Positions 1-18,832 of a stretch of 27,190 bases of DNA are shown one piece after another (positions within the stretch are counted from its first letter, which is position 1; every line of letters starts with the position of its first letter). A model generated the notes under the pieces. It did not search any database. It worked only from the letters and a program-made list of their open reading frames with translations, and was not told the DNA's origin. The translations under genes and the position numbers were made by a program. Origin of the DNA: a virus; IMG/VR virus record IMGVR_UViG_3300030090_006702, positions 1-27,190 of that record. One strand, 5' to 3'.

Positions 1-212
1 ATTGGTCTCCAATCAGGCATTCCGTCACTATCATCAGCGTTGATGTATCCTTCATCTGTAATTCTTGTAAACAAATCGTCACTTTTAAATGTTGTTTGTA
101 TACCCGAACCATCTAAAAAATCTAAATTATCATCATCATTATAATAATATTGACCATATGAATTATATTCAGGCATATTTTTTAGTATTTTATATTCTAT
201 TCTACCAGCCAT
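1..212 (-). CDS. Partial hypothetical protein, N-terminal 70 residues, distal to giant cysteine-rich gene
   Basis: I translated this frame by hand. It starts MAGRIEYKILKNMPEYN and stays open through DGMPDWRP to the window edge, so its 3' end is missing. The ATG shares one base with the TAA of the 3389-residue gene (TAATG), the same junction type used elsewhere in this operon. Translation is therefore probably coupled to that gene. The visible part is polar, rich in Asp, Asn and Tyr, and has no cysteine, no signal peptide and no membrane segment. An Asp-rich stretch (INADDSDGMPDW) could be a calcium-binding loop, but this is weak. I do not recognise the family. From position it is probably another tail-fibre or baseplate-associated structural protein. 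Confidence 0.7.
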   Translation of the reverse strand, partial: MAGRIEYKILKNMPEYNSYGQYYYNDDDNLDFLDGSGIQTTFKSDDLFTRITDEGYINADDSDGMPDWRP

Positions 213-3200
213 TAAAATTGTTTCCCATCTTGATCTAATTCAGGTTTAATTTGTGTCTCTACTTTTTCTGGAACACGTGTTTCTTGTTCATAATCTATTC
301 TATAGTCATTATATATAAATCCATCATTTCCATTTCCACTTAAATCTTGTAACATCCCATCACTTTCCGAATCGAATCCTATATCTAGTAATAAATATTT
401 GTTAAAATCATTTGACATGACAGAAGTTATTAAAGATTTGTCATCAATCGCATTCCAACTTTCTCTTTCCTCATGACCAAATGGTATTCTATCACCTTGT
501 AGTCCTAAATTTTCTTCATCAAATTCACCATAAACATTTAATTTTGGTAAAACTGGATAATAATAATTATTTCCATATTCATTTTGTCCAATCCAAATCT
601 GCCCATCAGTATCACTTGCGTTTACAGATATTAAATCATCTTCATTATATTCTAATCCTGTTCTATCACCTATAAAATAATTTTGAGGAATTATATTTTT
701 CCAATATGTTTCTAATTTTGGATCTCCACCATATTCATCATTAAATCCTAACATTTCTGCCATACTTATAGATTCATTAAAATATCTAACTTGCCCTAAA
801 TCTAAATTACCAAAACTTTTTCCAAGTTCACCATTAAAACGATTATATTTTCCTGAATATATTAGTGTTCCATCAAAAGCGTCATAGACAGGAGTCATAA
901 AAGCATTTAATTCATCAGCAATAAAATTTTCATCCATTTGTGCCAGTGCATATTGTGTCATAATCATATCATAATGAAATAGAAATTGTAAATCTAAAGG
1001 TTCTTCTTCAGGAATATCAGAAAAATATCCCAATTGTCTTAATATATTTTTATAATATATTCCTTTTTTTGAAATACCACCAATCACAGCTTGATTGGTA
1101 TTTGTTTGATTTAAAATATAAGGATGTTCTGAATAGCCTTCTGGTTCATTTATATTAATTTTTGTTGTAAATTTAAAAAATCTATTAACACCAAAATCAT
1201 GTAAATTTTTTGCTTCGGTATCTGCTGGTTGACATTTAATATTTTTGCTATCATCTATTTGATTTAAAGTATTATGACATTGTTCATGTGTACTACAACT
1301 CAAACCAGATTCAGAACCACCGATACAAACACCACCATTATCTATATCACTACAAAATCCCACACAATGATTATCATTTGTACAAGCCCAATTTCTACCA
1401 TCATGTTCTCCATGTATATCTACACAAGTTCTACCTTTATGTATACTAAACCAATATCCTGTTATTTCATACACTCCTGGTTTAGAATATGTGTGTCTTA
1501 ACTCTTGATTTTTATTTAATTCATAAGCTTCAGTTTCATATTCTATTTCACCATCACCCCAATCAAGTTGAAGTAAATACATTGGAATATTATCACTCAT
1601 TGATTGTGCTATTTCCCTACTATTTTGCCATGGATTACTTCCATATTTAGTTGGTTGAAAATGAAATATAACTTCTGATGGTGCTGTTGTTTCTTGATAT
1701 TTAATTGGTTGTAAAATTGGGTCGTAATATTCCCATAATCTTGAATTTTCACCTGTTAAAGACCTTTGTGTATATGTTAAAACATCTGGTAACCATTGTT
1801 CATAGTTTTCTGTAATGAGACATCCATTATTACTTGTATTATTTTCAGGATTATCAGATAAATCATTCTCTCTATCAAAAGCCTTTAAATCAACACCACA
1901 TTCATTTTCTACATTTTTAACAAGACCATCGAATTTTTTACCTATTCCTCCTAATCCTCCCCATTTTTTACCTGACATTGTAAAGTCTTCATAAAAATAA
2001 TTATCTATATACCCATCAGTACCTAAATTTCGGTCAAGTAATCTAAAATTATTAGGATCATCGGAATAATAAAAAGTACCTAATGATGGTCTTCCATCTG
2101 TATCAAATCCACCATTAAAAGTAGGTTCAAAATCTTGTTTTCTATATCTAAATTCATCAGTAAATGGGTTATTAATCCATTGACCTTGATATGGTTGTTG
2201 GTAATTAGATAAAGAAACTTCCCAATCAATTGAATTTCCAATATTTAATGTATTTTCAAGTGTAGTACTTGAACCATCCAAATCATAAATTGTTAATTCA
2301 ATACGATAATTATCATTTTTTATAAAACGATATCCAACACCACAAGAAACAAATGTATGTATATTAAATGCACCATCTATATTTTGATCATCAAGTAAAA
2401 TTGGACAATCTGGATTTGAATTACTATCGTTACCACTACCTTCGTTGTTATAATCTGGATGTGAAAAATAATGATAAGAACTTGTAGCCCACCAATACTT
2501 TAATGAGTTATTACTTGAATCAAATATTTCTAATTTATAAGCAGATATCTGATTTTGTGAATTATCAGGTTCTATGGATTCAATTCCACCATAATTTTCA
2601 TTACATGTAGAATAATCATTTTCACCATCAATACATAAAGTACCTGTAGTATCATTACCAGCTGGTCTGAATACATAATAATCTAAACCAGAACCAATAC
2701 CTGATGATGGTATCATAACCATATCACCAAAGAAACAAGTACCAGCGTCTTCCTCATCTTCAAGAACTGGATTATAGTTTATTGCTCCTTCAGTCATACA
2801 CCCAACACAATTATTAAAATTTGGATCATCTAAATCTTGATATACCTCACCACATTCATCAATATAATTACCACTTTGACACCAATTATTATGTTCATCG
2901 TTATTAGTCCATGGACCTGTACAAGAACAATTATTTTCTATATCTACCCAACGACATGATTCATTATTAATGTAGTAAGGTTCTTCTGGAGGAAGTTCAT
3001 CAATATTTGTATAATTACATGCAGTTTCATCTACACAAATAGTACAAGCTAAATTTGGAACACCATAACCACCATATCCATCTTCATAACAATTTCCACA
3101 TTCATCTGGTTCACTACCACAAGTTGGGCAACCTTTCCACTCATTATTATCACAACCACTTGGTACACAATCAGGATCTGCAGAATCACAATCATTACAA

Positions 3201-6200
3201 TAACAAGGACTTACTATATTTCCATCTGCATCTGTTGGACAGTCTTCATTGCTATCATATAAAGTTCTATCATCACAACCACAAGGATATAGACTATCTA
3301 TTCCATCATTATAGTCATTACCAGTATTACCACCTGTGCATGTATCACATTCATCAACTACTGCTGTTCCATTACAATCATTGTTACAATCTTTCATTGG
3401 ACAAAATGCATCAGAATTTTCAGTTGTTTCATATGTTGGATTTACTGGATATAAATTTGGACCATCATATCCACTTCCACATGTATCATCATTACATCCT
3501 GTACAAGCACAAGTAGAACAAGCAGTATCACTTGGTACTAAACAATCATTACAAGTCCAACTTCCCCCTACATTATTATTTATATTTCCTTCAACACATA
3601 AACCACAATCATCTGGATACCAACACTCTTGTTCTTGTATTTGACCAGGACAATATGTTGGTTGATTATTTTCACAACCATTTGCTGGACAATCTATTTC
3701 TACTTGACAAACTTCTTCGTAACAATCTCCCCAATTACCATTACAGATTGGAACATCTTCAGTTCCATTTATTGTAGCTGTAGGTGGACAATATGTATCG
3801 TTAGCATTACAAGTCTCATCACCACATTCAGTTGGCATTATACACATACTATTTTCTGCAAATGTACAAGGTATTGTTGTACAAGCTCCATTACCATCTT
3901 TTCTCATACCATAGTTACAAGCTTCTGGAATATTACAACCATAACATACAACATCTGTTCCCTCACATTGTCCACAAGTATCCGTAGTTCCTGGACAATC
4001 AGGTTCTGGGTCATTACAATCAGTAGTCCATGTTTCAACTTTGTTTGGGTCTTGTCCACCACCAGTTGGGGTATAATTATCAGGTAAAGAATAATACTGA
4101 CCAAAAGAAGGTACAAGTCCTTCGAATGGTGTTCCCAATGGACATATGTTTTGTTGAAAAAATGGGTCACCTAAACCATCTCCATCATCATCAAAACAAT
4201 GCTTTACTACACCTAATTCACCTGGAGTTCCACAACCACAATCTTGATCTTCATTACCACTAAAACATATATCATCACAACCTTTATTTTCGTTCTCACC
4301 AAAACAAACACCACATTCATCTCTTTCAGTTGGTAAACAACATTGAGGTCCTACATTTGCATGATTATCATAAGTAGCTGAACCGCCACATTGACCATTA
4401 CAATCCATGTCATTACAAATATTTGACATAATACAATTGGTTTCAAAAGCATCACCATCACAATTACCACATTCATCCCATTTCAATGGTCCATTTTCAC
4501 TACAACTACATTGGTTGTTTGCAACATTAGGCATATTAAATTGATTTTCTCCACATCCACCACAATCATCCCAATAAAGTGGAGTAGTTCCATCACAATC
4601 ACATACAGGAAAACCTCCAGACCAAGTTTGTGAATAATTATATCCAGGAAAATCGACAATAACATATGCATCATCTGGATCTTGACATAATCCACAAGAA
4701 TCTATAAAATCATCACCAAAACAACCACCATTACATTGTTCAAAATTTGGATAATTATCTGTAGTCCATAATCCAGAACCTTCGTAACCTTTAAAATCAA
4801 TCCACTCTTCTATTGTATAATAATCTATTTGTCCATCACCATCTGTATCTATACCATCAGTACATAATCCATAATGTGTATAATCTACATCATCATTAAT
4901 ATGTCCAAGTTGGTATCCATCATACCAACTTCCTGTATTAGGTGGACAGCAACCACATTGTTGTAAAAAGTTAGGTGTTAATTGAGTTGAACCACCAGTA
5001 CACACTCCACAAAAATCAATAACAGCAGGTCCAAATTGTATCCAATCATCATCAGTTGGAACATTTCCTAAACAATCAGCATCAAATTCACAACAAGCTG
5101 TTTCCATTCCAGATTGATCTGGATAGTTTGCACTACAATCAAATAAACAATCCATACTATTACCATCTGCATCCGTACATCCTTGTGAATCTGTACCAGG
5201 ACCATTATTAGCTCCAACAAATATACAACCAGCACATCTTTGACCATTTCCATTACAATCACCACATTGATCTAATCCAGGATATTGATTGTTTCCTTCA
5301 AAATCTTGTGTTATAGTTCCATTAAAATCACAAGTATCTGAACCATCTTCACATATACCATTTTCATAAGGTGAACCACATCCTGAATTTGAACCATAGT
5401 CACAACAACCATTACAATCTTGAGATGATTCACCAAAAACATTAAATGCTGGATTTATATTACCATCTATATCTCTAAAACAATTACCACAATCATCGAT
5501 ACCATAGAAAAAATCTTGTTCCCATTTACATTCAGGTGTAAATTCATCATTTAAACAAACATCTACGTCTTGAATAGCTCTACAATATTCTTCAAAATCA
5601 CCATCCGTACCACCAAATGATTCTTTAGCTTGACAAGCAAATGTTTCATTAGGTATCATCCTACCATCAACTTCTGTTGAAGGGTATGTACCACTATCCC
5701 AAACGATATCTGTTCTACAAAAATCACCTAACTCATCTTCGTTTAATGTCAAAGACCAACAACCATTAGTAACAGGTAATTCATTAGAACAAAAATAATT
5801 AGTAGTAAGGTCACCACTACCTAAACCATCACAATCATAATCATGATAATATTGTTTTCTAATATTATTACCACCACAAGAATAATCACAATCCAAGACA
5901 TTACCTACACAATCACAACAATCTTCAACCTCAAAACCAAAATCAGAACCACATAATTCTACAAAATTAGAATTAGGTATTCCTGAACCTGCAAATCCGT
6001 TATCACCTATCGTGTAGTATCCATCAGAAGAAGCGTCAACACAAGCATATTCTCCAAGTTCATAAGTGTTCTTACCCCCTAAAAAATCTGCAACATTATC
6101 AGAATCTGTTGGATTATAATTACAAGCTGTTGGGTCTGAATAACATCCACAAGCTGCTACATCCAAACAACTTGTTCCATCAACTACACCATCATCTCCA

Positions 6201-9200
6201 AAACAATATTGAACTGTATCACAACATATTTCTTCTCGTGCATCACCTTGACATACACCAGCACAATCTCTTCCAGAATCTGGTGTGAAATCACCATCTC
6301 CAATCCAATAAGTTGATTCAGAACAATTAAGTGCACAATCTAAAACTCCACCTAAACAACATCCATTTTCTTCTGTTAAAGTATCAGGTTCACCACAACC
6401 ACAAGATTCATTATGTTTGTTAAGTTGGATTACATGTGGTATTGGTCTACATTGTGGATCATCTCCACAAGTATCTAAACAATCACCACCATCACAATTA
6501 AAATCAATTGAATCTAACACGCCATCACCATCAGTATCTAAATTAGCATGAGCATGTCCTGGATAAAGATATATTGGACTACATGTATATGATGTTCCAT
6601 TACAAACACCATTACCAATTGCTGCTGGACCACCAACACACTCACTTGGAGTAGTACTATAATTTATAAAATCACAAGTTGGTATACTATAACCATTAAC
6701 AGTTCCTGCACAATCAACACATGTTGTGTTCCAACTTAAATTTGTAGGTACAGGATTATCTTGATCTGTAGTTAATGGATTACAAATCGGTTCATTACCA
6801 TAAACTTCTTCATTAGTCCAATTTGGTTGGTCTTCAGGTATTTCATCTAAATAATTACTACAACCTGGTTTTCTACATTCACCACAAGCGTCATATTGAG
6901 GCCTTTCACCTAAATCTCCTGGTTGTAATATTGGAGCGATATAATCAGCAGTTCCCCATTCAGGTATTTGTTCATAAATGTAATAACCACCATCACATTC
7001 TTGACGACATTCATAATTATAATATGCACAATATTTACTATTACAAGTTGTACCCATACCAGGATCTTGTTCTGTTGGACAATCAGGTAATCTAACACCA
7101 TTAACAACTTGACACTCTTGTTGGTTTTCAAATATTAATACATCACTACCATCAAGTTCGACACACCTGCCACAATTATCAAATTCAAATGGACAATCAC
7201 ATAAATTATTATTATCTGAATAAGATTCAAAACTTCCACCAAAACCATCTGCGGCAACCCAACAAAGTGAACCTTCTCCTATACCACATAATAATTCTAA
7301 ATTAGGATCTCCATCACAAAAGAAAGAACTACCAACATCACAAACAATACCATCTCCATCTTGGTCGTAATAGTATTCTTGTGCACCATCACCACCACAA
7401 ACTCCACAATCGTCACAAACATTATTCTCACAATCACAAATTTGATTTAATGTATTTTGTGGGTTAGTGGTATCACAAGTAACAGGATTCCAATCTGAAA
7501 AACAAGTACCACAATCATTTTGATCTCCACATGGTGACCATGAGCTATCAGTTGAATATTGAGTACAATCACCTTCACATATACCACAAAAATCTAATTC
7601 AGCATCACCACCACAAGAACCATCGGCAGGATAAGTACAATCATAAACATTACCTTCACAATCACAAGCTCCTTCTTCATATCCACAAGGTACTTCAGTT
7701 TCTGTACCAACTGTGTCACATAATATTCCTCCACAACAACAATTATTACAGAAGTCTAAAATTGCAGTTCCTCTACATTCACCATTACAATCATAATAAC
7801 CATTTTCATCAAGATTACCAGATGCATCAAAACCTAAATTAGCAGCTGGTGGTATATTTGAACACTCATTATTACAATCACAAACCAAATAATTATCATC
7901 ACCATATGATGTATTACAACAATATTCATCAGCTGAACCATTTGGACATATTTGTGTATTTTTTGATCCACCACAATCTCCACATTCATCGTAAGAAGAG
8001 TCACATATTTCATCAAGTGTTGATTGTGAACAAAATTCATCCATTAAACCTGCATCTATTGTAACATTTGCACCACTACCAACATAATAACTTGAAAATT
8101 CAGTGCCACCAGGATTATTACATGAATATTGAGGACTTGTAGAACAATCATAACAACCGACACCATTTTGATCACCATCATAACACCACAATTGAGCCGG
8201 TGTTCCTTCACAATCACAATTTGGAACTCCTGTACGAGCTTCTATGAATATACCATTATATTCTATTTCAGGAAAATTTGAAGTTCCATATCCAGGTCCT
8301 CCACAAACTCCACAAGTATCACAAGTATCTACAGGTGTATTACAACTACCAGGAGTATTGGTACATGGTAATCCAAAATCATCTAATCCTCCTGAACAAT
8401 CATATAATATATCAACACCACCTCCACAAACATTACATGCATCGAGATTTACTTCATTACATCCACAAGCACAAGTATTACAACTACCACCACATGTTCC
8501 ACAAGCGTCATTGGTTGAACCTCCACCACATGAAGCTTCTAATTCTGCAATTTCTTCAGGACCTGGTAACAAATAAGCGTTTTCAGCTCTACAATCCCAT
8601 ACTTCACCATCACCACCTGCATAAAGAGCTCCACAAGAACACCAAGTATTATCTATTAAACAATCAATTGATGTATATTGTTGACATGGAGTTCCATCTG
8701 GTAGTGTAAAGAAATATCCAGTATTACCAGATGAACCACCTGAACATTCACCACAATCATCAAGTACAGCTGTACCATTACATTCATCATTACAATCTAA
8801 AATGTGTGGTGTAAAATCATCAGGATTTCCATCACCAGTTGTATCTGTTCCATTGATGGAATTACAAGAACATTCTCCTTCTGGAATTCCATCTCCACCA
8901 CAGATACCACATTCATCATTTCCAATTTCATCCACTCCAGTTCCCAATAAAGGTCCATTACATACACCATTACAATCTACAATATTTCCGTCACAATCAC
9001 ATTGATCAGCTGGAATACCATCACCACCACAAACGCCGCATTCGTCAAAAATTTTTTCCGAACCACATACACCATCACAACCAATTCCACATGCACCATC
9101 CATACTATTTTGAATTAATATTGTTTCTATTAGTGGTGAATAAACACCATCACCATAATCAGTTAATAAAGATGGTTGTCCACAACCACCAGCATGTCCA

Positions 9201-10381
9201 GCATCACCTGGACAATTTCCAAAACAATCTTTAGACCAACCATCAATACAAATCCAAGTATTTCCATTGTCGTAATCTGCCATGTTTTCCCATGGTGGAG
9301 CACAATCGTCAATCGCAGCTGTTGTAGTTCCACCGATACATTCACCACAAATTGTTCCTTCATCATCACTTACTTGATCTGATGATGAACACTGTCCGTT
9401 GCAATCTAAACATTGACCCAAACCACAATTAAAAGTAGTATAACCAGTGTCATCCATATATACAGTTCCAATTAATGGATGACCAATACCTTGAGCTACT
9501 CCATCACAAAAATATCTTTCACATTGTTCATCTTGATCTATTCCATTTTGAACATTATCATAATAATTCATCCAAGCATCTGGATTTATACATTCATAAT
9601 CACCATCATCACAAGTTTCTATAAAACACCCTTCTCCGTTTGGATATAGTGCACCACTTATAGATGTATTTTCAGGAGAACATTCTCCTGTATCATGATT
9701 TGATATACAAGTATTATTACAATCCAATGTATGTCCAAAACAATCACAATATGTATCATCTTGTTCTGCAGAAAATGGTAATTCTACACTACCAACTTCT
9801 CCATTTGCAGTGTAAACACAATCTGCATTAGAATCATCATTAGCTTCTGGATCAAAATTACAAACACTATAACCTGTATTGGGTTGTAGAAAAGCTCCTG
9901 GATCTTTACAATAACCAAATTCATTTGGAAGTCTTATATTATCACCATCTGGTCTACAAAACCCATATACATCTGGAAAAGGACCAGGTTCATTTAAACT
10001 ACAACCAGGAATTATTATATAAACAAAATCAGGACTTATATAATCTTGATTAAATAAATCAGGTGTTCCAAATGATGCACCTGTATCAGGTATTTCATTT
10101 GATTCAAGAATAGTAGTTCCATCAGAAGTAGCTGTTAAAAAGTAATCTAATGCATCTGGTTTTACTTTTATAGTTAATACACCAAAATCAGGTGTTTGAC
10201 TGATAAAAATAAAAAAAGTTGGTCCAGCATCAGTACTGGGATAATAAGAAGTTTCTATATCTTGTTCATTACCATCAATATAAATTTTAAACTCATCAGC
10301 TGCATTTATTTCAACAACATTAGATTCTTTATCTAACATTTGATAACCAGCTAATACTATACCTATATCTTTATTTGCCAT
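212..10381 (-). CDS. Giant cysteine-rich repeat protein (3389 aa), putative phage tail fibre/adhesin
   Basis: One uninterrupted frame encodes 3389 residues. ATG directly abuts the TAG of the preceding gene, and AGAGGAAA lies a few bases upstream as ribosome binding site. Residues 1-125 form a cysteine-poor beta-rich N-terminal domain, a plausible virion anchor. Residues about 130-2550 are cysteine-rich repeats: about twenty D-x-C-G-x-C units (for example DECGVCGGDG), many DCNGxC units, a few xCNY units resembling GCTDPSACNY, and Asp-rich loops such as DTDGDGQID and DDDGDGLGD. By hand count, residues about 445-548 contain 14 cysteines in 104. After residue 2550 cysteine becomes rare. A PKD-like domain lies near residues 2895-2975 (DWGDGE, then HTYSKPGVYEITGYW). 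DLSGNGNDG near residue 3345 resembles the start of a concanavalin/LamG domain, but the protein ends about 40 residues later. No signal peptide or membrane helix is seen. Position after baseplate genes suggests a host-contact structure; function is inferred. Confidence 0.85.
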   Translation of the reverse strand: MANKDIGIVLAGYQMLDKESNVVEINAADEFKIYIDGNEQDIETSYYPSTDAGPTFFIFISQTPDFGVLTIKVKPDALDYFLTATSDGTTILESNEIPDTGASFGTPDLFNQDYISPDFVYIIIPGCSLNEPGPFPDVYGFCRPDGDNIRLPNEFGYCKDPGAFLQPNTGYSVCNFDPEANDDSNADCVYTANGEVGSVELPFSAEQDDTYCDCFGHTLDCNNTCISNHDTGECSPENTSISGALYPNGEGCFIETCDDGDYECINPDAWMNYYDNVQNGIDQDEQCERYFCDGVAQGIGHPLIGTVYMDDTGYTTFNCGLGQCLDCNGQCSSSDQVSDDEGTICGECIGGTTTAAIDDCAPPWENMADYDNGNTWICIDGWSKDCFGNCPGDAGHAGGCGQPSLLTDYGDGVYSPLIETILIQNSMDGACGIGCDGVCGSEKIFDECGVCGGDGIPADQCDCDGNIVDCNGVCNGPLLGTGVDEIGNDECGICGGDGIPEGECSCNSINGTDTTGDGNPDDFTPHILDCNDECNGTAVLDDCGECSGGSSGNTGYFFTLPDGTPCQQYTSIDCLIDNTWCSCGALYAGGDGEVWDCRAENAYLLPGPEEIAELEASCGGGSTNDACGTCGGSCNTCACGCNEVNLDACNVCGGGVDILYDCSGGLDDFGLPCTNTPGSCNTPVDTCDTCGVCGGPGYGTSNFPEIEYNGIFIEARTGVPNCDCEGTPAQLWCYDGDQNGVGCYDCSTSPQYSCNNPGGTEFSSYYVGSGANVTIDAGLMDEFCSQSTLDEICDSSYDECGDCGGSKNTQICPNGSADEYCCNTSYGDDNYLVCDCNNECSNIPPAANLGFDASGNLDENGYYDCNGECRGTAILDFCNNCCCGGILCDTVGTETEVPCGYEEGACDCEGNVYDCTYPADGSCGGDAELDFCGICEGDCTQYSTDSSWSPCGDQNDCGTCFSDWNPVTCDTTNPQNTLNQICDCENNVCDDCGVCGGDGAQEYYYDQDGDGIVCDVGSSFFCDGDPNLELLCGIGEGSLCWVAADGFGGSFESYSDNNNLCDCPFEFDNCGRCVELDGSDVLIFENQQECQVVNGVRLPDCPTEQDPGMGTTCNSKYCAYYNYECRQECDGGYYIYEQIPEWGTADYIAPILQPGDLGERPQYDACGECRKPGCSNYLDEIPEDQPNWTNEEVYGNEPICNPLTTDQDNPVPTNLSWNTTCVDCAGTVNGYSIPTCDFINYSTTPSECVGGPAAIGNGVCNGTSYTCSPIYLYPGHAHANLDTDGDGVLDSIDFNCDGGDCLDTCGDDPQCRPIPHVIQLNKHNESCGCGEPDTLTEENGCCLGGVLDCALNCSESTYWIGDGDFTPDSGRDCAGVCQGDAREEICCDTVQYCFGDDGVVDGTSCLDVAACGCYSDPTACNYNPTDSDNVADFLGGKNTYELGEYACVDASSDGYYTIGDNGFAGSGIPNSNFVELCGSDFGFEVEDCCDCVGNVLDCDYSCGGNNIRKQYYHDYDCDGLGSGDLTTNYFCSNELPVTNGCWSLTLNEDELGDFCRTDIVWDSGTYPSTEVDGRMIPNETFACQAKESFGGTDGDFEEYCRAIQDVDVCLNDEFTPECKWEQDFFYGIDDCGNCFRDIDGNINPAFNVFGESSQDCNGCCDYGSNSGCGSPYENGICEDGSDTCDFNGTITQDFEGNNQYPGLDQCGDCNGNGQRCAGCIFVGANNGPGTDSQGCTDADGNSMDCLFDCSANYPDQSGMETACCEFDADCLGNVPTDDDWIQFGPAVIDFCGVCTGGSTQLTPNFLQQCGCCPPNTGSWYDGYQLGHINDDVDYTHYGLCTDGIDTDGDGQIDYYTIEEWIDFKGYEGSGLWTTDNYPNFEQCNGGCFGDDFIDSCGLCQDPDDAYVIVDFPGYNYSQTWSGGFPVCDCDGTTPLYWDDCGGCGENQFNMPNVANNQCSCSENGPLKWDECGNCDGDAFETNCIMSNICNDMDCNGQCGGSATYDNHANVGPQCCLPTERDECGVCFGENENKGCDDICFSGNEDQDCGCGTPGELGVVKHCFDDDGDGLGDPFFQQNICPLGTPFEGLVPSFGQYYSLPDNYTPTGGGQDPNKVETWTTDCNDPEPDCPGTTDTCGQCEGTDVVCYGCNIPEACNYGMRKDGNGACTTIPCTFAENSMCIMPTECGDETCNANDTYCPPTATINGTEDVPICNGNWGDCYEEVCQVEIDCPANGCENNQPTYCPGQIQEQECWYPDDCGLCVEGNINNNVGGSWTCNDCLVPSDTACSTCACTGCNDDTCGSGYDGPNLYPVNPTYETTENSDAFCPMKDCNNDCNGTAVVDECDTCTGGNTGNDYNDGIDSLYPCGCDDRTLYDSNEDCPTDADGNIVSPCYCNDCDSADPDCVPSGCDNNEWKGCPTCGSEPDECGNCYEDGYGGYGVPNLACTICVDETACNYTNIDELPPEEPYYINNESCRWVDIENNCSCTGPWTNNDEHNNWCQSGNYIDECGEVYQDLDDPNFNNCVGCMTEGAINYNPVLEDEEDAGTCFFGDMVMIPSSGIGSGLDYYVFRPAGNDTTGTLCIDGENDYSTCNENYGGIESIEPDNSQNQISAYKLEIFDSSNNSLKYWWATSSYHYFSHPDYNNEGSGNDSNSNPDCPILLDDQNIDGAFNIHTFVSCGVGYRFIKNDNYRIELTIYDLDGSSTTLENTLNIGNSIDWEVSLSNYQQPYQGQWINNPFTDEFRYRKQDFEPTFNGGFDTDGRPSLGTFYYSDDPNNFRLLDRNLGTDGYIDNYFYEDFTMSGKKWGGLGGIGKKFDGLVKNVENECGVDLKAFDRENDLSDNPENNTSNNGCLITENYEQWLPDVLTYTQRSLTGENSRLWEYYDPILQPIKYQETTAPSEVIFHFQPTKYGSNPWQNSREIAQSMSDNIPMYLLQLDWGDGEIEYETEAYELNKNQELRHTYSKPGVYEITGYWFSIHKGRTCVDIHGEHDGRNWACTNDNHCVGFCSDIDNGGVCIGGSESGLSCSTHEQCHNTLNQIDDSKNIKCQPADTEAKNLHDFGVNRFFKFTTKININEPEGYSEHPYILNQTNTNQAVIGGISKKGIYYKNILRQLGYFSDIPEEEPLDLQFLFHYDMIMTQYALAQMDENFIADELNAFMTPVYDAFDGTLIYSGKYNRFNGELGKSFGNLDLGQVRYFNESISMAEMLGFNDEYGGDPKLETYWKNIIPQNYFIGDRTGLEYNEDDLISVNASDTDGQIWIGQNEYGNNYYYPVLPKLNVYGEFDEENLGLQGDRIPFGHEERESWNAIDDKSLITSVMSNDFNKYLLLDIGFDSESDGMLQDLSGNGNDGFIYNDYRIDYEQETRVPEKVETQIKPELDQDGKQF

Positions 10382-12139
10382 CTAACTTTCCTCTGGTAAA
10401 GTCCATCTGAACCAACCAGCATTTGTTGTTTTTAGTTTTATTCCCATTCCAGGTTTCAAATTTATATTAGGTCCAACCCAACCAATTCCACCTATATAAT
10501 TAAAAAAACCATTGTCTAAATTTTCGTCACTACCTGCACAATTTTCATTTGCACATAAAATTACATATACATAATCACCTGTCATAAAAGTTGCTGGTGT
10601 TGTATCTCCAGTATCTGGATTATTCATATAAAAAGATTCGTTCAATAACTGAATCATATCATAATTATTACCATCAACATTCGGGGGTAAATAAGAACCT
10701 ATCAAACTATAAGCTCCTCCTCCTGGTATATAAATAGGTGGAAATTCAGATAACTGTGTTCCTAAAATATCAATATCTCCAATTGTAAAATCTCTTTCAA
10801 CTTCATCAGAAAAACCATCAGAGTTTGCTATTGTTAATTTAGCAGTAATTATACCACCCCCACCAAACTCATCAGTAGGGTCGGAATAAAGTGGTATTGT
10901 AAATCCAAGTTGAGGACCTGTGCCAGTCCATGTATTTCCATCAGTATCTTCTACCTCCCAAGAATATCCTGAAATAACGACATTGGTATCATAATCCGAT
11001 TCATTAGGCATTGCAAGTGAATTATTTCCAACTATTGTTATTTGATTATTTTCAAATAAAGGATCTGTTATATCGTTTATAAAAGCTATCGGATTAAATG
11101 TACAACTACCATCATCTGTAGCTGAAGTATATGTATCTCCTGTACAATAATATGAATTACCACATTCACCATCACAAATATAATTATTGGCCAATGCATC
11201 CAAACAATCTTCATACTCACAACTACCATCATTAATTGTCGCATTTGTATCTTGATTTGTTGCACATGGATCATCACAACCAGGTCTATCATCATCAGTT
11301 ATTGTAATTTGATTTGATAGTCTCGATGGACTTCCATCTTGTGTTTTAATTTTTATTTTATAATTACCTAGTCCTAAATTAGCCGATTCAAAAAATTCTT
11401 CAATATTAATATTTAAATCTACATATTGATAAGAATTACAATCATATGAAGTATTTATTTCAGTATATAAATGTTCAGAACTACCATTTGATAAATTTAT
11501 AAAAGATACTATTAAAGGTGAATCGGAATTAGAAATATTTCTATATCTAAATCGAGCATACATATCGGTATTTGTTCCCAATTCATAAGAGGATGGTGGT
11601 TGTGTTGAAAAATATATCAAAGATGAAAAAGTTGTGCACTCACCATTATTACAATACTCACAACTTCCACATGTACCACAACTACCACCACAACCATCTG
11701 AACCGCAATCAAGGTCAGTACAATCTGGCATACATACACATATACCAGCAATACATTCATATTGATCACTATAAAGTGATTCACAATTGTTTCCACAACT
11801 TATCGTTCCACCACAACCATCATCAAATGTCTCACCAGGACATTCATCGTATGTAAAATCATTACAAGTTAGTGGAGTACAAGGGCATAATAAAGCCGCA
11901 CTGGTTTCATACACCTTATCACAAATAAATAATTGATCACTACAAAGACAATCTGCACCTTGAGCTGGAATTGGAACAGTTACTGAATTTGCTTGACATT
12001 GTGTATTATTTTGATAACACGAAAAAGTTACAGAAGAGTTGTCCGGACAAACCTCAACCTGACCCAATTGTTCTCCAGATGGACCTAAACAACCCCCTTG
12101 AGAAGTAAGATTTACATCTATTCTATAATCTTGTTTCAT
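10382..12139 (-). CDS. Cysteine-rich structural protein (585 aa) with PKD-like segment, putative tail-tip protein
   Basis: The ATG shares one base with the stop of the 1002-residue gene (TAATG), with AAGGA upstream, so the two are probably translationally coupled. The N-terminal 170 residues are rich in cysteine and include LDCGSDGCGGSCGTCGSC, a repeat style common in myxobacterial and other deltaproteobacterial surface proteins. Residues about 175-285 are a cysteine-poor beta segment. Two units of the GCTDPSACNY...NDGSCEY type follow (CATNQDTNATINDGSCEY and DDGSCTFNP). A PKD-like or Ig-like segment comes next (ISGYSWEVEDTDGNTW ... ITAKLTIANSDG). The last 110 residues end in GWVGPNINLKPGMGIKLK, which resembles the N-terminal domain of the neighbouring 1002-residue protein. 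No signal peptide is seen. It is probably part of the same extracellular phage structure as its neighbours; the exact role is unknown. Confidence 0.8.
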   Translation of the reverse strand: MKQDYRIDVNLTSQGGCLGPSGEQLGQVEVCPDNSSVTFSCYQNNTQCQANSVTVPIPAQGADCLCSDQLFICDKVYETSAALLCPCTPLTCNDFTYDECPGETFDDGCGGTISCGNNCESLYSDQYECIAGICVCMPDCTDLDCGSDGCGGSCGTCGSCEYCNNGECTTFSSLIYFSTQPPSSYELGTNTDMYARFRYRNISNSDSPLIVSFINLSNGSSEHLYTEINTSYDCNSYQYVDLNINIEEFFESANLGLGNYKIKIKTQDGSPSRLSNQITITDDDRPGCDDPCATNQDTNATINDGSCEYEDCLDALANNYICDGECGNSYYCTGDTYTSATDDGSCTFNPIAFINDITDPLFENNQITIVGNNSLAMPNESDYDTNVVISGYSWEVEDTDGNTWTGTGPQLGFTIPLYSDPTDEFGGGGIITAKLTIANSDGFSDEVERDFTIGDIDILGTQLSEFPPIYIPGGGAYSLIGSYLPPNVDGNNYDMIQLLNESFYMNNPDTGDTTPATFMTGDYVYVILCANENCAGSDENLDNGFFNYIGGIGWVGPNINLKPGMGIKLKTTNAGWFRWTLPEES

Positions 12140-15100
12140 TATATATTTTCCTTAAATTTTAACCAACCAAATGGAAGTCCACATTGAATCATTTCATCTC
12201 TTAATCCACATTCACATTGATAACCTATTCCATCTATACTATAAATACCATCATCACAATTACCAGAACAATTTCCTGGAGTACAAGTTGATGTTAAATC
12301 AGCTAATAAAAATCTTATTTTTCCTACAAAACCTTTTACTATACAACTACCATCAGATTCAGTACAACCATCAGGCATTGAGTTTCCCGTTTCATATAAC
12401 GCGTTTCCAAATTCTTCTTCTCCCATATCATCTGTACTTATAAATTCAAATCCATTATAATATAACATACCTTTTTGCATACCAACTAAAGATGTTGTTT
12501 CTATTGAATCACCATTTATTATCGAAGCTAATGAAGCTAATGAAGGAGCTTCTGACATATCACAATCATCCCATTCCACACCATCACAATATTCATCCGG
12601 ATTTACTAACCAAATATAATTATAAATATCTTTTATTGATATAGATTTTTCATATGGGTAATAAAAATCAAATTCTCCTCTAAATGGAACTACACCTCCA
12701 CCTCCAGTAGAACGAAATTTATCTCTCAATTCAAGGTCAACAGGTTCTGCTCTAAATGTAAATGTACAAGTACCATTATCAATAGTTGCATTTACATCAT
12801 AGTTATCTGCTCCTGAATATGTACAACCATAACAAGATTCAGCTTGATAACCTGCATCACCTGTACACACACCACAATCATCTATAAATGAATCACCATC
12901 ACATACGCCTGCACAATCAACTATTGCTATACAATCTCCATTGCAATCATAATTTGTTGGTGGACCATCTCCATCACATACACCACATTCATCATTTACT
13001 AATGCAGAATCACATTGATTATCACAACCAGACCTTGTATAACATTCAAAATCAGGATAACAAGTTGATGTAGGTCCGCACAATGTATCTCCTGTAGCAG
13101 AATCTATTGAAGTTGTACAATCTACGGGTTCTGGATTTCCGCAACCACATCCAAGATTTACAATTGAACCATCACATGTTCCACAGTCGTCATAACCTGA
13201 ACCATCACAAACTCCACAATCGTCTAATACTCCATCACCTCCACATTCTCCACATTCATCAAAATTATTATTAGGACAATCGTCTTCTTCGTCACATATA
13301 CCATCTCCATCAGAATCTACAAGACAATCACCATTACAATCACGATAAGGTGGTGGGAATGAACAAGGAGCACATACACCTATGTTACAAGCTCCTTCTG
13401 TTTGACAAACCACAGCATCTCCGTCACATACTCCAGCACAATCTTCTACTGCTATTCCACCACATTCATCAAAACAATCTATGAATGTAATACAATTTCC
13501 ATCACAATCAAATCCAGCAGGTGGTTGTGAATCATCAGCACAATTACAATATGAAGTGTTATTATTATAAGTATAAAAACAACTTCCATCATCCCAAATA
13601 GCTTCTGCATCAGGATTACATGCTGGAGTTGCATCATCTGTACACCCACCACACACTGCAGTTCCTTCTTCTGGATAATCTGCATCAGTTGTACAATTTC
13701 CACAAATATCAATAACTCCACCACCTGGACAATTATCTAATAAATTAGAAACAAATGGAACACCCCAAATACATTCATCCGTATTATTACATTCTGTTGA
13801 TGTTGTTATACTTCCACATCCTATAGATACTTCAGTATTTGAATAACAATGGTCAATGAGATTTGGATTATTAGCACACATTGAATAACCTTGATTATCA
13901 GGTGATTCATTGGATGGTGTATCTTCTCCAAAACCATCTCTATCTATATCTCTATAATATTTTATTCTAACATCTGGATGACAACAACCTGCAGGTTGTG
14001 AATCATCATTAGTCAATACATATGTGTCCGATAGTGGATAATAATCTGTAAGACTTGAACCATCTACATTACCTGCACAATCAGTACATGTTGAACCATC
14101 ACCATTACATACACCACAAAAATCATAACAATTACCCAAAGAACAATTAAAATAAAAAACTTCCCCATTAAGTTGTTCTTTAAAATCACAGGCAAAATTT
14201 GCAGCTGTTCCATTACCATCAAAACATTCACCACCATGTGTTGCTATATAAGTTTCCCATATAGCTAATGATATACATGCATCATTACAATCTAATATAT
14301 AAATCATACCATCATCTGCTTTACCACAATTAGGTGTTGGTGCACAATCAAATCCAGCATTAGCATGTCCTTCTGGATAAACATAAACATCTTCATCTAA
14401 ATAACCCATACATTGTGAATAATCACATGAAAAAGGACCTAAACCTGGTGGGTCAAACATTCCTCCTGGACCATCTACGGTATATTCACAACTACCATCG
14501 TTTATAGTTGCTGTTGGTAAATAATTACAAGCTGATGGATCTGTACAACCATAAACTGGACAATCTGGACACTCTGGACAACATGAATCACAATCTGGAC
14601 ACTCTGGACAATCAGGGCAGTCTGGACAATCAGGGCAGTCTGGACAATCTGGACAATCCGGAATGTCTGGACATCCACCATAAAATTGACACCATTCTTC
14701 TTCAGATTGTAAAAACTCATTGGTAATTGGGTTTGTATAATTATCCCAAGACATATATAAATCACCACTATCAACTGGATTTTCAGGTACCACACATACT
14801 TCTATTGTACATGGTGAAGTTGAATTACCTTCGTCATCTTCAAGTTCCATTTTAACCCAATATCCTTTTAAAGGTTCAATATTATATAAACTACCTACCC
14901 ATCCAAGATTTGCATTATAATTTGCTGCAATACCCTCACCTATAATCGAAGAAAGTCCAGTAGAAAGAGCAAAATCTGGATTACTACAATCAGTTCTACA
15001 ACTGGCAAGATTTTCAATAGATGTATCTGCATCAGTCCAGTTACCCTCATCACCACTCTGAACATCGTAACAATTAGCAGCCAATAATCCAGGAATACTT

Positions 15101-15147
15101 ATTAAATTTGCACCTTGATGAACCTCTAAATCATAACAATGTATCAC
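12139..15147 (-). CDS. Cysteine-rich repeat protein (1002 aa) with (Cys-Pro-Asp)n tract, putative tail fibre protein
   Basis: The start codon is GTG, overlapping the preceding stop as GTGA and supported by GGAGGA eight bases upstream. Residues 1-105 form a globular domain with GANLISIPG and LGWVGSLYNIEPLKGYWVK, a pattern found in repeat proteins of marine Bacteroidota and phages. Residues about 160-198 contain a low-complexity Cys-Pro-Asp/Glu tract. A GCTDPSACNY unit follows, then a long region of DCxGxC and D-x-C-G-x-C repeats. It includes a thrombospondin-3-like calcium loop (DSDGDGICDEEDDCPN) and DECGECGGDGVLDDCGVC. From about residue 790 the chain changes to a mostly cysteine-poor C-terminal domain (FRGEFDFYYPYEKSISIKD ...), with a small cysteine cluster near the end. 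No signal peptide or membrane helix is visible. It probably contributes to the same host-contact structure as the genes on either side; this is inferred from position and composition. Confidence 0.83.
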   Translation of the reverse strand: MIHCYDLEVHQGANLISIPGLLAANCYDVQSGDEGNWTDADTSIENLASCRTDCSNPDFALSTGLSSIIGEGIAANYNANLGWVGSLYNIEPLKGYWVKMELEDDEGNSTSPCTIEVCVVPENPVDSGDLYMSWDNYTNPITNEFLQSEEEWCQFYGGCPDIPDCPDCPDCPDCPDCPDCPECPDCDSCCPECPDCPVYGCTDPSACNYLPTATINDGSCEYTVDGPGGMFDPPGLGPFSCDYSQCMGYLDEDVYVYPEGHANAGFDCAPTPNCGKADDGMIYILDCNDACISLAIWETYIATHGGECFDGNGTAANFACDFKEQLNGEVFYFNCSLGNCYDFCGVCNGDGSTCTDCAGNVDGSSLTDYYPLSDTYVLTNDDSQPAGCCHPDVRIKYYRDIDRDGFGEDTPSNESPDNQGYSMCANNPNLIDHCYSNTEVSIGCGSITTSTECNNTDECIWGVPFVSNLLDNCPGGGVIDICGNCTTDADYPEEGTAVCGGCTDDATPACNPDAEAIWDDGSCFYTYNNNTSYCNCADDSQPPAGFDCDGNCITFIDCFDECGGIAVEDCAGVCDGDAVVCQTEGACNIGVCAPCSFPPPYRDCNGDCLVDSDGDGICDEEDDCPNNNFDECGECGGDGVLDDCGVCDGSGYDDCGTCDGSIVNLGCGCGNPEPVDCTTSIDSATGDTLCGPTSTCYPDFECYTRSGCDNQCDSALVNDECGVCDGDGPPTNYDCNGDCIAIVDCAGVCDGDSFIDDCGVCTGDAGYQAESCYGCTYSGADNYDVNATIDNGTCTFTFRAEPVDLELRDKFRSTGGGGVVPFRGEFDFYYPYEKSISIKDIYNYIWLVNPDEYCDGVEWDDCDMSEAPSLASLASIINGDSIETTSLVGMQKGMLYYNGFEFISTDDMGEEEFGNALYETGNSMPDGCTESDGSCIVKGFVGKIRFLLADLTSTCTPGNCSGNCDDGIYSIDGIGYQCECGLRDEMIQCGLPFGWLKFKENI
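14556..14671 (-). repeat. Tandem nine-base repeat encoding Cys-Pro-Asp
   Basis: Inside the 1002-residue gene, a nine-base unit reading TGT-CCA-GA(T/C) on the coding strand is repeated with small variation. It gives runs such as CPDCPDCPDC, then PECPDCDSCCPECPDC. A perfect 18-base duplication is visible at 14603-14620 and 14621-14638. Synonymous changes between units (gac/gat, tgt/tgc) show the tract is not wholly recent. Such a tract could expand or contract by slippage in whole tripeptides without breaking the frame. Confidence 0.9.
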
Positions 15148-15863
15148 GTCGGAGTTCCTCCACTATCATCTTCTATACAACAATATGTTCCTTCAATATT
15201 TGTACATGTATAATCTATAGGACATTGATCTGAAGTACCACCTGGACATTCATAACCAGGACATTGATAACCAATATCGTCATTTTGACAACATTGTGCA
15301 CAGCACCTACTTAAAAATTGGTCATTGATATCAAATACATTTTGATTACAATCTCTACAATTAAATGTTCTACAATCACATATCTCTGTAACCCCGTCAT
15401 CTATATCATCTATAGGTGGTAGTGGTGTAGCTATCTCAATTGCGGTATTATAAAAATTAATTATATCAAAGCTTTCGTTTAAATTTGTTTCTCTACCTAT
15501 TCTTTTTATATGTGATATGTAAATCTGATCACCATGTCTACAATATATTCTACCATCTTCATTAGCTGGTACAGGATATATATTAGGATTATATGGTGTA
15601 TCATTACCCATAACAGGAACAGTGATAATGTCAACTTGATTATATTCTTCAGATATATTAGGATTATATCTAAAAGCTCCTATAACAGATGGTTTACCTT
15701 CTCTATCAGTATGACAATAAGCTATAAATACATCACCAGTATCTAATCTTTGAATTTCTTCAGGTATAAATTGCACAAAAGCTTGTGAAACCTGTTGTGT
15801 ATATTCAAAATATACTCTTTGAGGATCTAAAATATCTGTTGGGTCAGTTCTAGAATTTGGCAT
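15144..15863 (-). CDS. Virion-associated protein (239 aa) with cysteine-rich C-terminal knot
   Basis: ATG is preceded by GGAG about eight bases upstream, and the gene begins 16 bases after its upstream neighbour ends. Residues 1-150 look like a compact beta-rich domain without many cysteines (VFIAYCHTDREGKPSVIGAF; later DGRIYCRHGDQIYISHIKR). Residues 162-229 carry 14 cysteines, with paired CC at 187-188, 191-192 and 228-229. The segment CPIDYTCTNIEGTYCC is reminiscent of granulin-like or other small disulfide knots, but I cannot assign it. The gene is the first of four consecutive cysteine-rich genes, and its stop overlaps the next start as GTGA. It may be an adaptor linking the baseplate to the larger cysteine-rich proteins; this is a guess from gene order. 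I do not recognise a named family. Confidence 0.75.
   Translation of the reverse strand: MPNSRTDPTDILDPQRVYFEYTQQVSQAFVQFIPEEIQRLDTGDVFIAYCHTDREGKPSVIGAFRYNPNISEEYNQVDIITVPVMGNDTPYNPNIYPVPANEDGRIYCRHGDQIYISHIKRIGRETNLNESFDIINFYNTAIEIATPLPPIDDIDDGVTEICDCRTFNCRDCNQNVFDINDQFLSRCCAQCCQNDDIGYQCPGYECPGGTSDQCPIDYTCTNIEGTYCCIEDDSGGTPT
15156..15161 (-). promoter_or_regulatory. Strong ribosome binding site that fixes a GTG start
   Basis: The coding strand reads GGAGGA, then eight bases, then GTG. No ATG lies at a comparable position, and the GTG overlaps the preceding TGA as GTGA. This selects GTG at 15147 as the start of the 1002-residue protein. Confidence 0.75.
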
Positions 15864-15879
15864 TTAAATACTCCAATTA

Positions 15880-17664
15880 TTATATTTTATAACCACGAGC
15901 TCTTAATAAATCACTCTTTGATATTATCTCCACTTTGCACCTTGCTCCTTCACCAGAATTATTTATATAATTTCCAGGAGTATCAGTTGCTGGTTCAACA
16001 TTCCACCTCCAATAATCTGGATCATTTTGTACAGGTGTACAATTAGGATTACATTGTGTACCAGTACAATCAGGTGCAGTTCCTGTACAACTACCTTGTA
16101 TTTGTGTTTCTACTATACTTGGATTATAATTTGCAACAATAAAATACCACTCATTTCTATCAGTTGGTATTCTTGTATAAGTTAAAGCTTGTTCTAAATT
16201 AAGTGTGTCACCGACACCAATCATTTGATTATATATATGAGGTAAACCATTAGTATTATCTAACCTTCCAACATCATATGAACCGACATGTGAATTATAA
16301 ATCTCACCACCATCATTAACCACAAGTCTAACAAACCTAGCATGACTTGTATCATCAAACAAATAATTGTAAGGTGATGCACCATCCCCAAATGTAAGTG
16401 CACAACTTTCATCCATACAATCATCTTCCCCAATAGCAAAAGTTTCTAACACAAAACCATATACACTACCATTACTTAATGGGGCACCAAAATTAAAAAG
16501 TGTTCCATTTGATTTTTTGTCAATAAATCTAACCCACATTGTTATGGTAAATCCATCACTTTGATAATTTTCAATTCCTGTTAATTCACCAGTTTCTGCT
16601 CTAACTATTATTGACTGATTTAATCCTCTAAATTTTAAATAACCTTCAGCTATATCTGAATAATCTATTCTATCATCAATTTCATCTGGATCTATAATTT
16701 CATCGATATCTTGTAAATAAGGATTTATTCTGTTTCTTAATGTTTCTAATGATTTATTTTCATTAACTCCATCTTCATGTCTAACTAATCTTGTTATATA
16801 TCCAGCATTAGGACCTAATTTAGAAATATCATACAAATCACTATAGTCATTTGATAAGTCTCCAACATTTCCACCCACATCCCAATCAAGGTCAACTCCA
16901 GGTGCACCATCTGTATCAAAATCTGGTGGGTTTGGTGCCAATAATTGGCCAAATTCAGCAAAAAGTCTATCTATTCTTTCTTGTCTTGTTTGAATACCTG
17001 GTAATAATTCATATATAGTTGTATCTAATATTTCTTCAGCTTTTTGATGATCGATTAATGTTTTATCAGTTTCTAATGGTATCAACTGACTTAATAAATT
17101 TAAAACAGGAGTATCACAATCATTACAAGTGTCAACAGCTGGTGTTAATACTTCTAATGTGTATGTAACAGGAGATCCATCTGTTAAAACATGATTTGCA
17201 ACTATTTGAGCTGTATTTCCTGGATCTGGATTACCGTAAATAGTGTTTCCATATTCATCCAACTCTAATGTGTCAACTGCTTGAAAACCATTCCAATTCC
17301 AATACCACATACCTGAAGTTCCATCTGTTACCCATTCTTGAGATGGTATGTCATATAGTTTATTACCATATGAATCTTTTTGTCCAGTATAATAAGTTTC
17401 TGAAATTGCATCTATAAATTCATCAATACCTACTTGATTATTCATTTTTTGATAATCTTCTTGATATATTACATTTTGTTTGTTTTGTGCAGTTCCACCA
17501 GTTTGAATATGTCCACCATCACTTACTGTTTTTCTATAGAAATCTAAATCTAATTGAAATTTTAAATTATAAAAATAGGGTGAATGCCTATGAAGCATTA
17601 TCATTTTTATAATTTGATCAATGATGTGATCTCTCATTTGATCTTTAATCCAAGTGTTTGCCAT
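15880..17664 (-). CDS. Tail structural protein (594 aa) with concanavalin/LamG-like domain
   Basis: The GAGG ribosome binding site lies within the last codons of the upstream gene, leaving seven bases between the stop and this ATG. The N-terminus is helical and charged (WIKDQMRDHIIDQIIKMIML). The middle, about residues 40-330, has no motif I recognise. From about residue 338 a LamG/concanavalin-like beta-sandwich is plausible: LKFRGLNQSIIV, then GFTITMWVRFIDKKSNGTLFNFG, then NEWYFIVANYNPS near residue 500. That order of strands is typical of such lectin-like domains. A short cysteine-bearing insert (CTGTAPDCTGTQCNPNC) sits near residues 515-535 and foreshadows the cysteine-rich neighbours. 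The end reads KVEIISKSDLLRARGYKI. Position directly after the gp6-like block suggests a baseplate-peripheral or fibre-base protein that may bind glycans. It could occupy the place of T4 gp7 or gp8, but I see no convincing sequence match. Confidence 0.75.
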   Translation of the reverse strand: MANTWIKDQMRDHIIDQIIKMIMLHRHSPYFYNLKFQLDLDFYRKTVSDGGHIQTGGTAQNKQNVIYQEDYQKMNNQVGIDEFIDAISETYYTGQKDSYGNKLYDIPSQEWVTDGTSGMWYWNWNGFQAVDTLELDEYGNTIYGNPDPGNTAQIVANHVLTDGSPVTYTLEVLTPAVDTCNDCDTPVLNLLSQLIPLETDKTLIDHQKAEEILDTTIYELLPGIQTRQERIDRLFAEFGQLLAPNPPDFDTDGAPGVDLDWDVGGNVGDLSNDYSDLYDISKLGPNAGYITRLVRHEDGVNENKSLETLRNRINPYLQDIDEIIDPDEIDDRIDYSDIAEGYLKFRGLNQSIIVRAETGELTGIENYQSDGFTITMWVRFIDKKSNGTLFNFGAPLSNGSVYGFVLETFAIGEDDCMDESCALTFGDGASPYNYLFDDTSHARFVRLVVNDGGEIYNSHVGSYDVGRLDNTNGLPHIYNQMIGVGDTLNLEQALTYTRIPTDRNEWYFIVANYNPSIVETQIQGSCTGTAPDCTGTQCNPNCTPVQNDPDYWRWNVEPATDTPGNYINNSGEGARCKVEIISKSDLLRARGYKI

Positions 17665-17671
17665 TTTTAAT

Positions 17672-18832
17672 TTACCTCTTTACTTTAAATTCAAAACCAT
17701 CGTCAAAAATTTGTTCTTGACCATCGTCATATTTTACTTTAAGTAAAATTTTATAAACTCTATCAGGATAAAACCCATCCAACCATTGATTGAAATAATT
17801 TCCATTTAAATCAACACTCATAGATGAAAATTGTCCAAATGGTACAATAGTTTCATCAGTAGCTACATCTTTTATTGAATACCAACCACTACCAGTTGGT
17901 ACATATGAACCTGTTGTAGTTTGAACTGATGTATTAAAAGTTTTTTGGATATATCTTTTTCTTGCACCAACTCTAAACTTAACTTTTTCACCTTCTTTAT
18001 AACTTTCTTTTAATCCCCTCATATATAAAAAGTTGTCAGCTAATCCACTCATTGTTAATTCATTCATACTACCTGTAACATTTGAATCAAATGTTGAATC
18101 ATTCCATTTTACTTCTAGTTTTGGTGCATATATTGTATTGGTATTTTTTGAAAAGAATTTTAAATCACCATATGTTATTTCACCATCTGTACCAGTAGCT
18201 AGTTCTTGACTTCCACTAAATCTTAATAAGTAACCTTCTATTGGATAATTTTTATTATTATTAAATATTTGTAAAAGTATAGGAACAGTCATATCCATAT
18301 TAATATCAGGAGATTCATATGAAAAAGATTGAACACCAAAAGTATTTGAGCCTGTAATATAATCTTGACCATCATTATATTTACCAGCAGAATTATTACT
18401 CCAACTAACAGCTGTACTACCCGGTTTATTTTGTCTATTATCCCAACTACAACCATCAGTAACTTTAGGGCTATCACCAAATTTACCAGTACCTTCATCC
18501 CACGAAGCTGATAACATATGTGCAACAATTTTGTATTCTGATGAATTATCTCGATTACCTTCAGCTTCATACAATCTTAAAAAAGCTCTTGAAGTAGAAT
18601 CTGTTGAACCTAATAATGGTATCTCACCTCTAGCAATAGATTGAGATAATGGATTTATATCAAAATCAACCAAAACTCTTGTAATATGATTTAATGAATT
18701 ATTATGATAAAACTTTTTTAATTCTAAAATTTCATCTTGACCAAAATTTTGATCTCTTTGACTAACACCAGTGATTAAATTTGAACCACTTGAAATCCAT
18801 GTATCTTTTTTTGAAAAATAAAATGTATGCAT
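17672..18832 (-). CDS. Tail/baseplate-associated protein (386 aa), DNRLRE-like beta domain
   Basis: ATG overlaps the stop of the gp6-like gene (TAATG), with AGGAG ten bases upstream. The N-terminal 250 residues resemble the DNRLRE-type beta-sandwich of surface proteins: DTWISSGSN, then FGQDEILELKK, then a strand ending TRVLVDFDI, then AFLRLYEAEG and VAHMLSASWDEGTG. The rest is beta-rich, with KVKFRVGARKRYIQKTF near residues 285-300 and YKILLKVKYDDGQEQIFDDGFEF at the end. There is almost no cysteine, unlike the genes downstream. Position right after gp6 suggests a wedge-associated or fibre-attachment protein. The DNRLRE assignment is by pattern only and should be treated as tentative. Confidence 0.72.
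   Translation of the reverse strand: MHTFYFSKKDTWISSGSNLITGVSQRDQNFGQDEILELKKFYHNNSLNHITRVLVDFDINPLSQSIARGEIPLLGSTDSTSRAFLRLYEAEGNRDNSSEYKIVAHMLSASWDEGTGKFGDSPKVTDGCSWDNRQNKPGSTAVSWSNNSAGKYNDGQDYITGSNTFGVQSFSYESPDINMDMTVPILLQIFNNNKNYPIEGYLLRFSGSQELATGTDGEITYGDLKFFSKNTNTIYAPKLEVKWNDSTFDSNVTGSMNELTMSGLADNFLYMRGLKESYKEGEKVKFRVGARKRYIQKTFNTSVQTTTGSYVPTGSGWYSIKDVATDETIVPFGQFSSMSVDLNGNYFNQWLDGFYPDRVYKILLKVKYDDGQEQIFDDGFEFKVKR

Follow-up and report, generated by a model that had tools for sequence, protein, structure and literature searches.

The gp6 and gp25 wedge proteins are conserved components of contractile-tail baseplates. Genes for both are found on the minus strand of IMG/VR virus record IMGVR_UViG_3300030090_006702, which was analyzed in its entirety (linear, 27,190 bp; hereafter the window), and they mark a contractile-phage (T4-type) baseplate operon that also includes gene A, encoding a cysteine-rich giant of 3389 amino acids. 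Gene A (protein P0001; 212-10381, minus strand) is a single uninterrupted open reading frame (ORF) with an ATG start, and the wedge genes, gp25-like at 21022-21468 (phrog_261, E 3.5e-19) and gp6-like at 18832-21018 (phrog_219, E 1.2e-27), lie 8-11 kb upstream of it on the same strand. A preliminary description of this DNA had reported an intact frame of more than 10 kb following baseplate genes, giving no strand for it; the plus strand of 212-10381 is full of stops, and the description holds on both counts, the second in transcription order.

The 282 cysteines of the giant are distributed very unevenly, with none in residues 1-100, a density of 7-16 per 100 between about residues 200 and 2600, and only 12 beyond residue 2600, in agreement with the cysteine-poor head and tail described earlier. 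Read on the minus strand, the gene begins with this head (residues 1-125; 10007-10381), which only the two closest relatives possess, and continues into a stalk (residues 126-2600; 2582-10006) in which four-cysteine units of the DECGVCGGDG..CDCDGN type stand amid degenerate ones. The stalk has 270 cysteines in 2475 residues, or about 11%, so the earlier phrase that the protein consists mainly of hundreds of cysteines is right as to number and overstated as to proportion. The repeats themselves are real: DxCGxC occurs 20 times, against a mean of 0.3 (maximum 2) in shuffled sequences, and DC[NDA]GxC 6 times, against 0.09. Beyond the stalk lies a conserved C-terminal part (residues ~2712-3389; 215-2248) that is kept in relatives without a stalk, and which holds a PKD-like domain (residues ~2860-2990; 1412-1804) and a terminal module (residues 3061-3389; 215-1201) common to the neighboring gene B.

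A scan of IMG/VR with gp6 yielded 45 relatives, among them a 56-kb contig (G002) with a collinear orthologue of 3404 amino acids and 282 cysteines in a single frame. The two giants are 63.4% identical over their full length, evenly spread (50-79% per 100 residues), and cysteine is aligned to cysteine at 275 of 282 positions; a third contig carries the first 1150 residues. Between orthologues, the stalk conserves 99% of its cysteines, 82% of its glycines, 63% of its aspartates and 38% of its glutamates; its dN/dS (NG86) is ~0.5, that of the C-terminal part 0.37. This conservation and the dN/dS values indicate that the repeats are old and individually maintained, with no recent tandem expansion. 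An artificial join of several genes, which the preliminary description had itself named as fatal to its account, is thereby excluded, and we assign practically no probability to gene A being an assembly artifact or a decayed gene: intact collinear orthologues occur on independent contigs, in one frame with no stops and under purifying selection.

Gene A belongs to a widespread family whose C-terminus is conserved and whose N-terminus is elastic. In all, 79 loci were recovered with an alignment of the C-terminal 533 residues, and in ~75 marine contigs gene A occupies one fixed position in the baseplate operon, nearly all loci sharing the order gp6-p386-p594-A-B-p1839-p213-p351-p304 as far as contig ends allow. 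Within this slot its product ranges from 533 amino acids with 0 cysteines to at least 4373 with 211, and for the smallest forms a separate gene encodes the last ~210 residues. The homologues of uncultured marine phages (L093-L170) have the operon slot and C-terminal core of the window giant, yet in most of them cysteines are few and the N-terminal part is either short or of a different kind; none was found to be functionally annotated or to have been cultured. On the gp6 tree, the window and seven other cysteine-rich rows share a single starred group (the G014 record accounts for two of these eight rows), and the cysteine-rich state requires about three changes on what is a quick tree with many open forks.

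Several other arrangements in these phages deserve mention. In G006 (L086/L087, IMGVR_UViG_3300030419_007560) an even larger cysteine-rich cluster follows p594, where a 6060-residue ORF with 459 cysteines (~15986-34165) is flanked by ORFs of 2165 residues with 148 cysteines, 587 with 57, and more than 1450 with 140; this contig stops before any gene A C-terminus. The giants of L074, L075 and L079 carry Lamin-tail domains (PF00932, with E as low as 1.5e-23) at residues ~410-530, in the N-terminal region, and two short cysteine-poor forms (L135, 7356-9623; L151, 8588-10306) contain one GC.D.NANN(Y/F)...DDG.C unit. A second cysteine-rich protein, outside the baseplate slot and with dockerin type I domains above the Pfam cut-off, is encoded at L073:3334-9738(-), L076:9014-12583(-) and L080:6172-9609(+).

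Database searches place the giant in no described family. The preliminary description had proposed comparison with phage fiber families, and P0001 matches nothing at cut-off in PHROG, Pfam or NCBIfam, including any known tail fiber or receptor-binding family. Likewise, tblastn found no match in 50,697 phage records to the C-terminus, to the greater part of the stalk, to a short gene A, to a neighboring 1002-residue protein or to a repeat consensus, a search in which low-complexity filtering by BLAST may mask repeats, and searches of open-licence papers turned up no description of such a phage protein. The core of the repeat resembles the DKCGVCGGDNS motif of the ADAMTS cysteine-rich domain (PF19236; PDB 9rwm), a match of E 0.014-5 over one short stretch that serves as a lead only. 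Giant adhesive phage proteins are already known; what is new here is the gene family, the unusual cysteine stalk and, possibly, a reversed polarity.

Segment-wise structure prediction, as proposed in the preliminary description, was informative for one region. An AlphaFold2 (AF2) monomer model of residues 2570-3389 (38 rows) has a mean predicted local distance difference test score (pLDDT) of 55, with residues ~2860-2990 mostly at 61-91, and PKD structures lead the matches to this region in Foldseek (4xed, probability 0.97, E 0.12) and in VIA (1wgo of SorCS2, Z 7.8 over 97 residues, rmsd 2.9). A profile search of PDB sequences again found 4xed (E 0.043), while PF18911 (PKD_4) scored E 0.022 and 15.2 bits, below its gathering threshold of 27. 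These signals are weak singly, but they agree and support a PKD-like domain, which appears to share the WGDG...HTY..PG.Y.I signature and fold of the references and differs from them in falling below the Pfam cut-off and reaching a Z of only 7.8. The lectin-like piece suggested alongside it is not supported: the last residues belong to the module common to gene B, and neither PHROG nor NCBIfam gave a match there, nor did Pfam for lectin or LamG up to E 1, in a region of low pLDDT where a divergent fold is possible. A viral fold library gave no confident match to the C-terminal model.

Which end of the protein would face the virion is best judged from its relatives. Among 538 phage pairs with gp6 62-99% identical, the median alignable coverage of gene A is 0.74 in the C-terminal and 0.34 in the N-terminal part, and the C-terminal part is better matched in 528. 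Because the C-terminal part is conserved and the N-terminal part replaceable, the comparison suggests that the former docks on the baseplate, with the stalk directed outward and the N-terminus distal. The opposite arrangement, in which gene A is anchored N-terminally like ordinary fibers and the PKD-containing C-terminal part is an outer receptor or folding end, would conform to most characterized tail fibers, which attach via the N-terminus, and to the frequency of PKD-like domains in extracellular adhesive proteins. We nonetheless consider it unlikely, since relatives whose gp6 is nearly identical lack the N-terminal part, have only a short one or carry another in its place, the proteins of L099 and L120 start directly at the C-terminal core, and the adjacent gene B has the C-terminal module of gene A as a paralogous copy. 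The polarity suggested by the N-terminal "cap" of the preliminary description is thus probably reversed, the N-terminus being likelier to form the outer or variable end than to anchor the protein on the virion.

The manner in which stalk cysteines change bears on their chemistry. Between the window and G002, all six local groups of differing cysteines are even-sized, with a net change of 0 or 2; residues 883 and 888, for instance, are both replaced in the two relatives, and two cysteines are gained together near 2340/2352. A second, independent comparison, of the giants G005 and G007 (56% identity), shows pairs in 5 of 5 stalk groups, and two single changes are confined to the cysteine-poor N-terminal region, so that stalk groups are even in 11 of 11 with no odd net change. 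Random placement of equally many changes among cysteine columns gave all-even groups in 0 of 20,000 draws for window/G002 and in 0.00025 of draws for G005/G007, a null that is weakened by the fact that indels removing two cysteines together can mimic a paired change; most of the even groups do coincide with an indel or local alignment shift. This even-numbered pattern favors disulfides over four-ligand metal sites, and we infer that cysteines of the stalk are joined in many local disulfides, possibly not until the host lyses, given the lack of an apparent signal peptide on gene A. A stalk stabilized in the reducing cytosol by metal (Zn-type CxxC knuckles or Fe), with no disulfides, would suit phage assembly in the host cytoplasm and the excess of CxxC motifs (43, against 23.6 expected by shuffling). 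It appears improbable to us in view of the changes in groups of two, the mere 15 histidines in the stalk, the lack of any zinc-finger family match, and the export by the type IX secretion system (T9SS) of the proteins to which related bacterial repeats belong. Of the proposals in the preliminary description that the extended stalk is rigidified by disulfides, metal or calcium, the first therefore gains from the 99% cysteine conservation and the even-group changes, while metal and calcium are little favored, with no curated calcium-domain match.

The repeat is not confined to phages. A codon pattern for DECGVCGGDG was found in at least 120 stretches of GTDB genomes, where ~0.015 would be expected by chance as estimated from codon degeneracy; among the matches listed, 77 are from Bacteroidota (mostly Flavobacteriales), 26 from Fidelibacterota/Marinimicrobia and a few from others. 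Residues 437-565 of gene A align with 103 bacterial segments that contain the four-cysteine DECGVCGGDG..CDCDGN unit. The cysteine-rich T9SS proteins of marine Flavobacteriales and Neomarinimicrobiota have DECGVCGGDGIxxGxCDCDGN, DxDGDGxCD and ACNY..DDGSC units as in the phage stalk; the T9SS C-terminal sorting domain (TIGR04183/PF18962) is present in 3 of 4 long bacterial repeat proteins scanned, and signal peptides are evident by eye in several others. The bacterial arrays often repeat regularly, with a 23-residue period, and are exported, whereas the phage stalk is degenerate, and P0001 has no apparent signal peptide and no TIGR04183/PF18962 match. The bacterial repeat proteins, moreover, seem to have dockerin-like ends. 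Because the repeat occurs mainly in those bacteria, a marine Bacteroidota or Marinimicrobia host is likely for this phage.

The likeness of the stalk to host-type secreted proteins could also mean that gene A is not a virion protein at all and is instead released at lysis or secreted, acting on the host surface or on aggregates as, for example, a soluble matrix or decoy protein. This seems to us very improbable: synteny within the baseplate operon is strict over ~75 contigs, the C-terminal module is common to gene B, and P0001 lacks both an apparent signal peptide and a T9SS sorting-domain match. Rather, the tight same-strand run with gp6- and gp25-like genes and the adjoining gene B with its common module lead us to infer that the gene A product is a tail or baseplate component.

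Taking these lines together, we lean toward gene A encoding an adhesive arm associated with the baseplate of a marine contractile-tailed phage, and the very long adhesin envisaged earlier is plausible; virion location, orientation and adhesion are all read from sequence comparison. Our confidence is highest for a baseplate component and falls through local disulfides and C-terminal docking to an adhesive stalk. The conserved C-terminal part would dock near the baseplate wedge and the N-terminal part would reach outward, forming in the window lineage a stalk with ~135 possible disulfides whose cysteines would be oxidized after host lysis. Such a stalk would use a repeat that also occurs in proteins secreted by the likely host pool, marine Bacteroidota and Marinimicrobia, and could offer adhesive surfaces for the host envelope, secreted matrix or particles. 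More tentatively, gene A may represent an undescribed family of baseplate arms with a C-terminal anchor, lengthened N-terminally by up to thousands of residues by host-type T9SS disulfide repeats and folding oxidatively only post-lysis.

Besides the indels noted above, several observations weigh against this picture. The module common to genes A and B is not by itself proof of docking, and the AF2 models of both the C-terminal part (mean pLDDT 55) and the N-terminal part and stalk are poor; that of residues 1-570 (37 rows) has a mean pLDDT of 43, with low-confidence strands at residues 1-100 (pLDDT ~45-73). A thioredoxin search of 11 partial contigs came up empty, and an Erv/ALR search was uninformative, as control genomes gave no match. 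Finally, Flavobacterium phage immuto (vB_FspM_immuto), Microcystis phage Mel-JY01 and the 484-kb LR756508 share with the window family the order of their homologues of gp25-like, gp6-like, p386, p1839, p213 and p351, yet between p386 and p1839 neither p594 nor gene A nor gene B was detected in them, and there is no cysteine-rich giant; the p594, A and B proteins are therefore not core baseplate parts, and the giant occupies an accessory slot within a conserved baseplate operon.

The findings define a gene family, unnamed and widespread among marine phages, whose length and cysteine content vary extremely at one fixed operon position, and they link to phage tails a repeat of proteins secreted by marine Bacteroidota, Marinimicrobia and a few other lineages. 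If the arm is virion-borne, it poses the puzzle of how assembly in a reducing cytosol yields a structure with so many potential disulfides, and the question of whether the arm copies host matrix proteins in order to adhere to them.

The remaining genes of the window, all on the minus strand, complete the operon. Gene B (MAGRIEYKILKNMPEYN...; 1-212) overlaps gene A by one base (TAATG) and runs off the record; its complete homologue in G002 has 428 amino acids. A frameshift, with the C-terminal piece of gene A continuing in another frame, was considered here and rejected, as the ATG that follows shares a base with the stop codon and is the start of gene B. Directly upstream of gene A sit three further cysteine-rich ORFs, encoding proteins of 585 residues with 36 cysteines (10382-12139; 36% identical to a 714-residue counterpart in G002), 1002 residues with 102 cysteines (12139-15147; DxCGxC repeats), and 239 residues with 16 cysteines and a cysteine-rich C-terminal half (15144-15863); the other minus-strand ORFs have 0.67% cysteine. 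The 1002-residue protein also contains a CPDCPDCPDC... tandem with 9 CP[DE]C, and a similar stretch seems present in L057/L085. Ahead of this variable cluster lie p594 (15880-17664), a conserved operon protein, and p386 (17672-18832), which is also conserved in immuto and Mel-JY01. PHROG gave no useful E-value for homologues of p386, p1839, p213 and p351, and their T4 equivalents are therefore left unnamed. In Mel-JY01 (L091, 28990-37936), p351-like proteins are repeated, sharing their C-terminal part and differing in the N-terminal one, and so form another tail gene family with C-terminal conservation.

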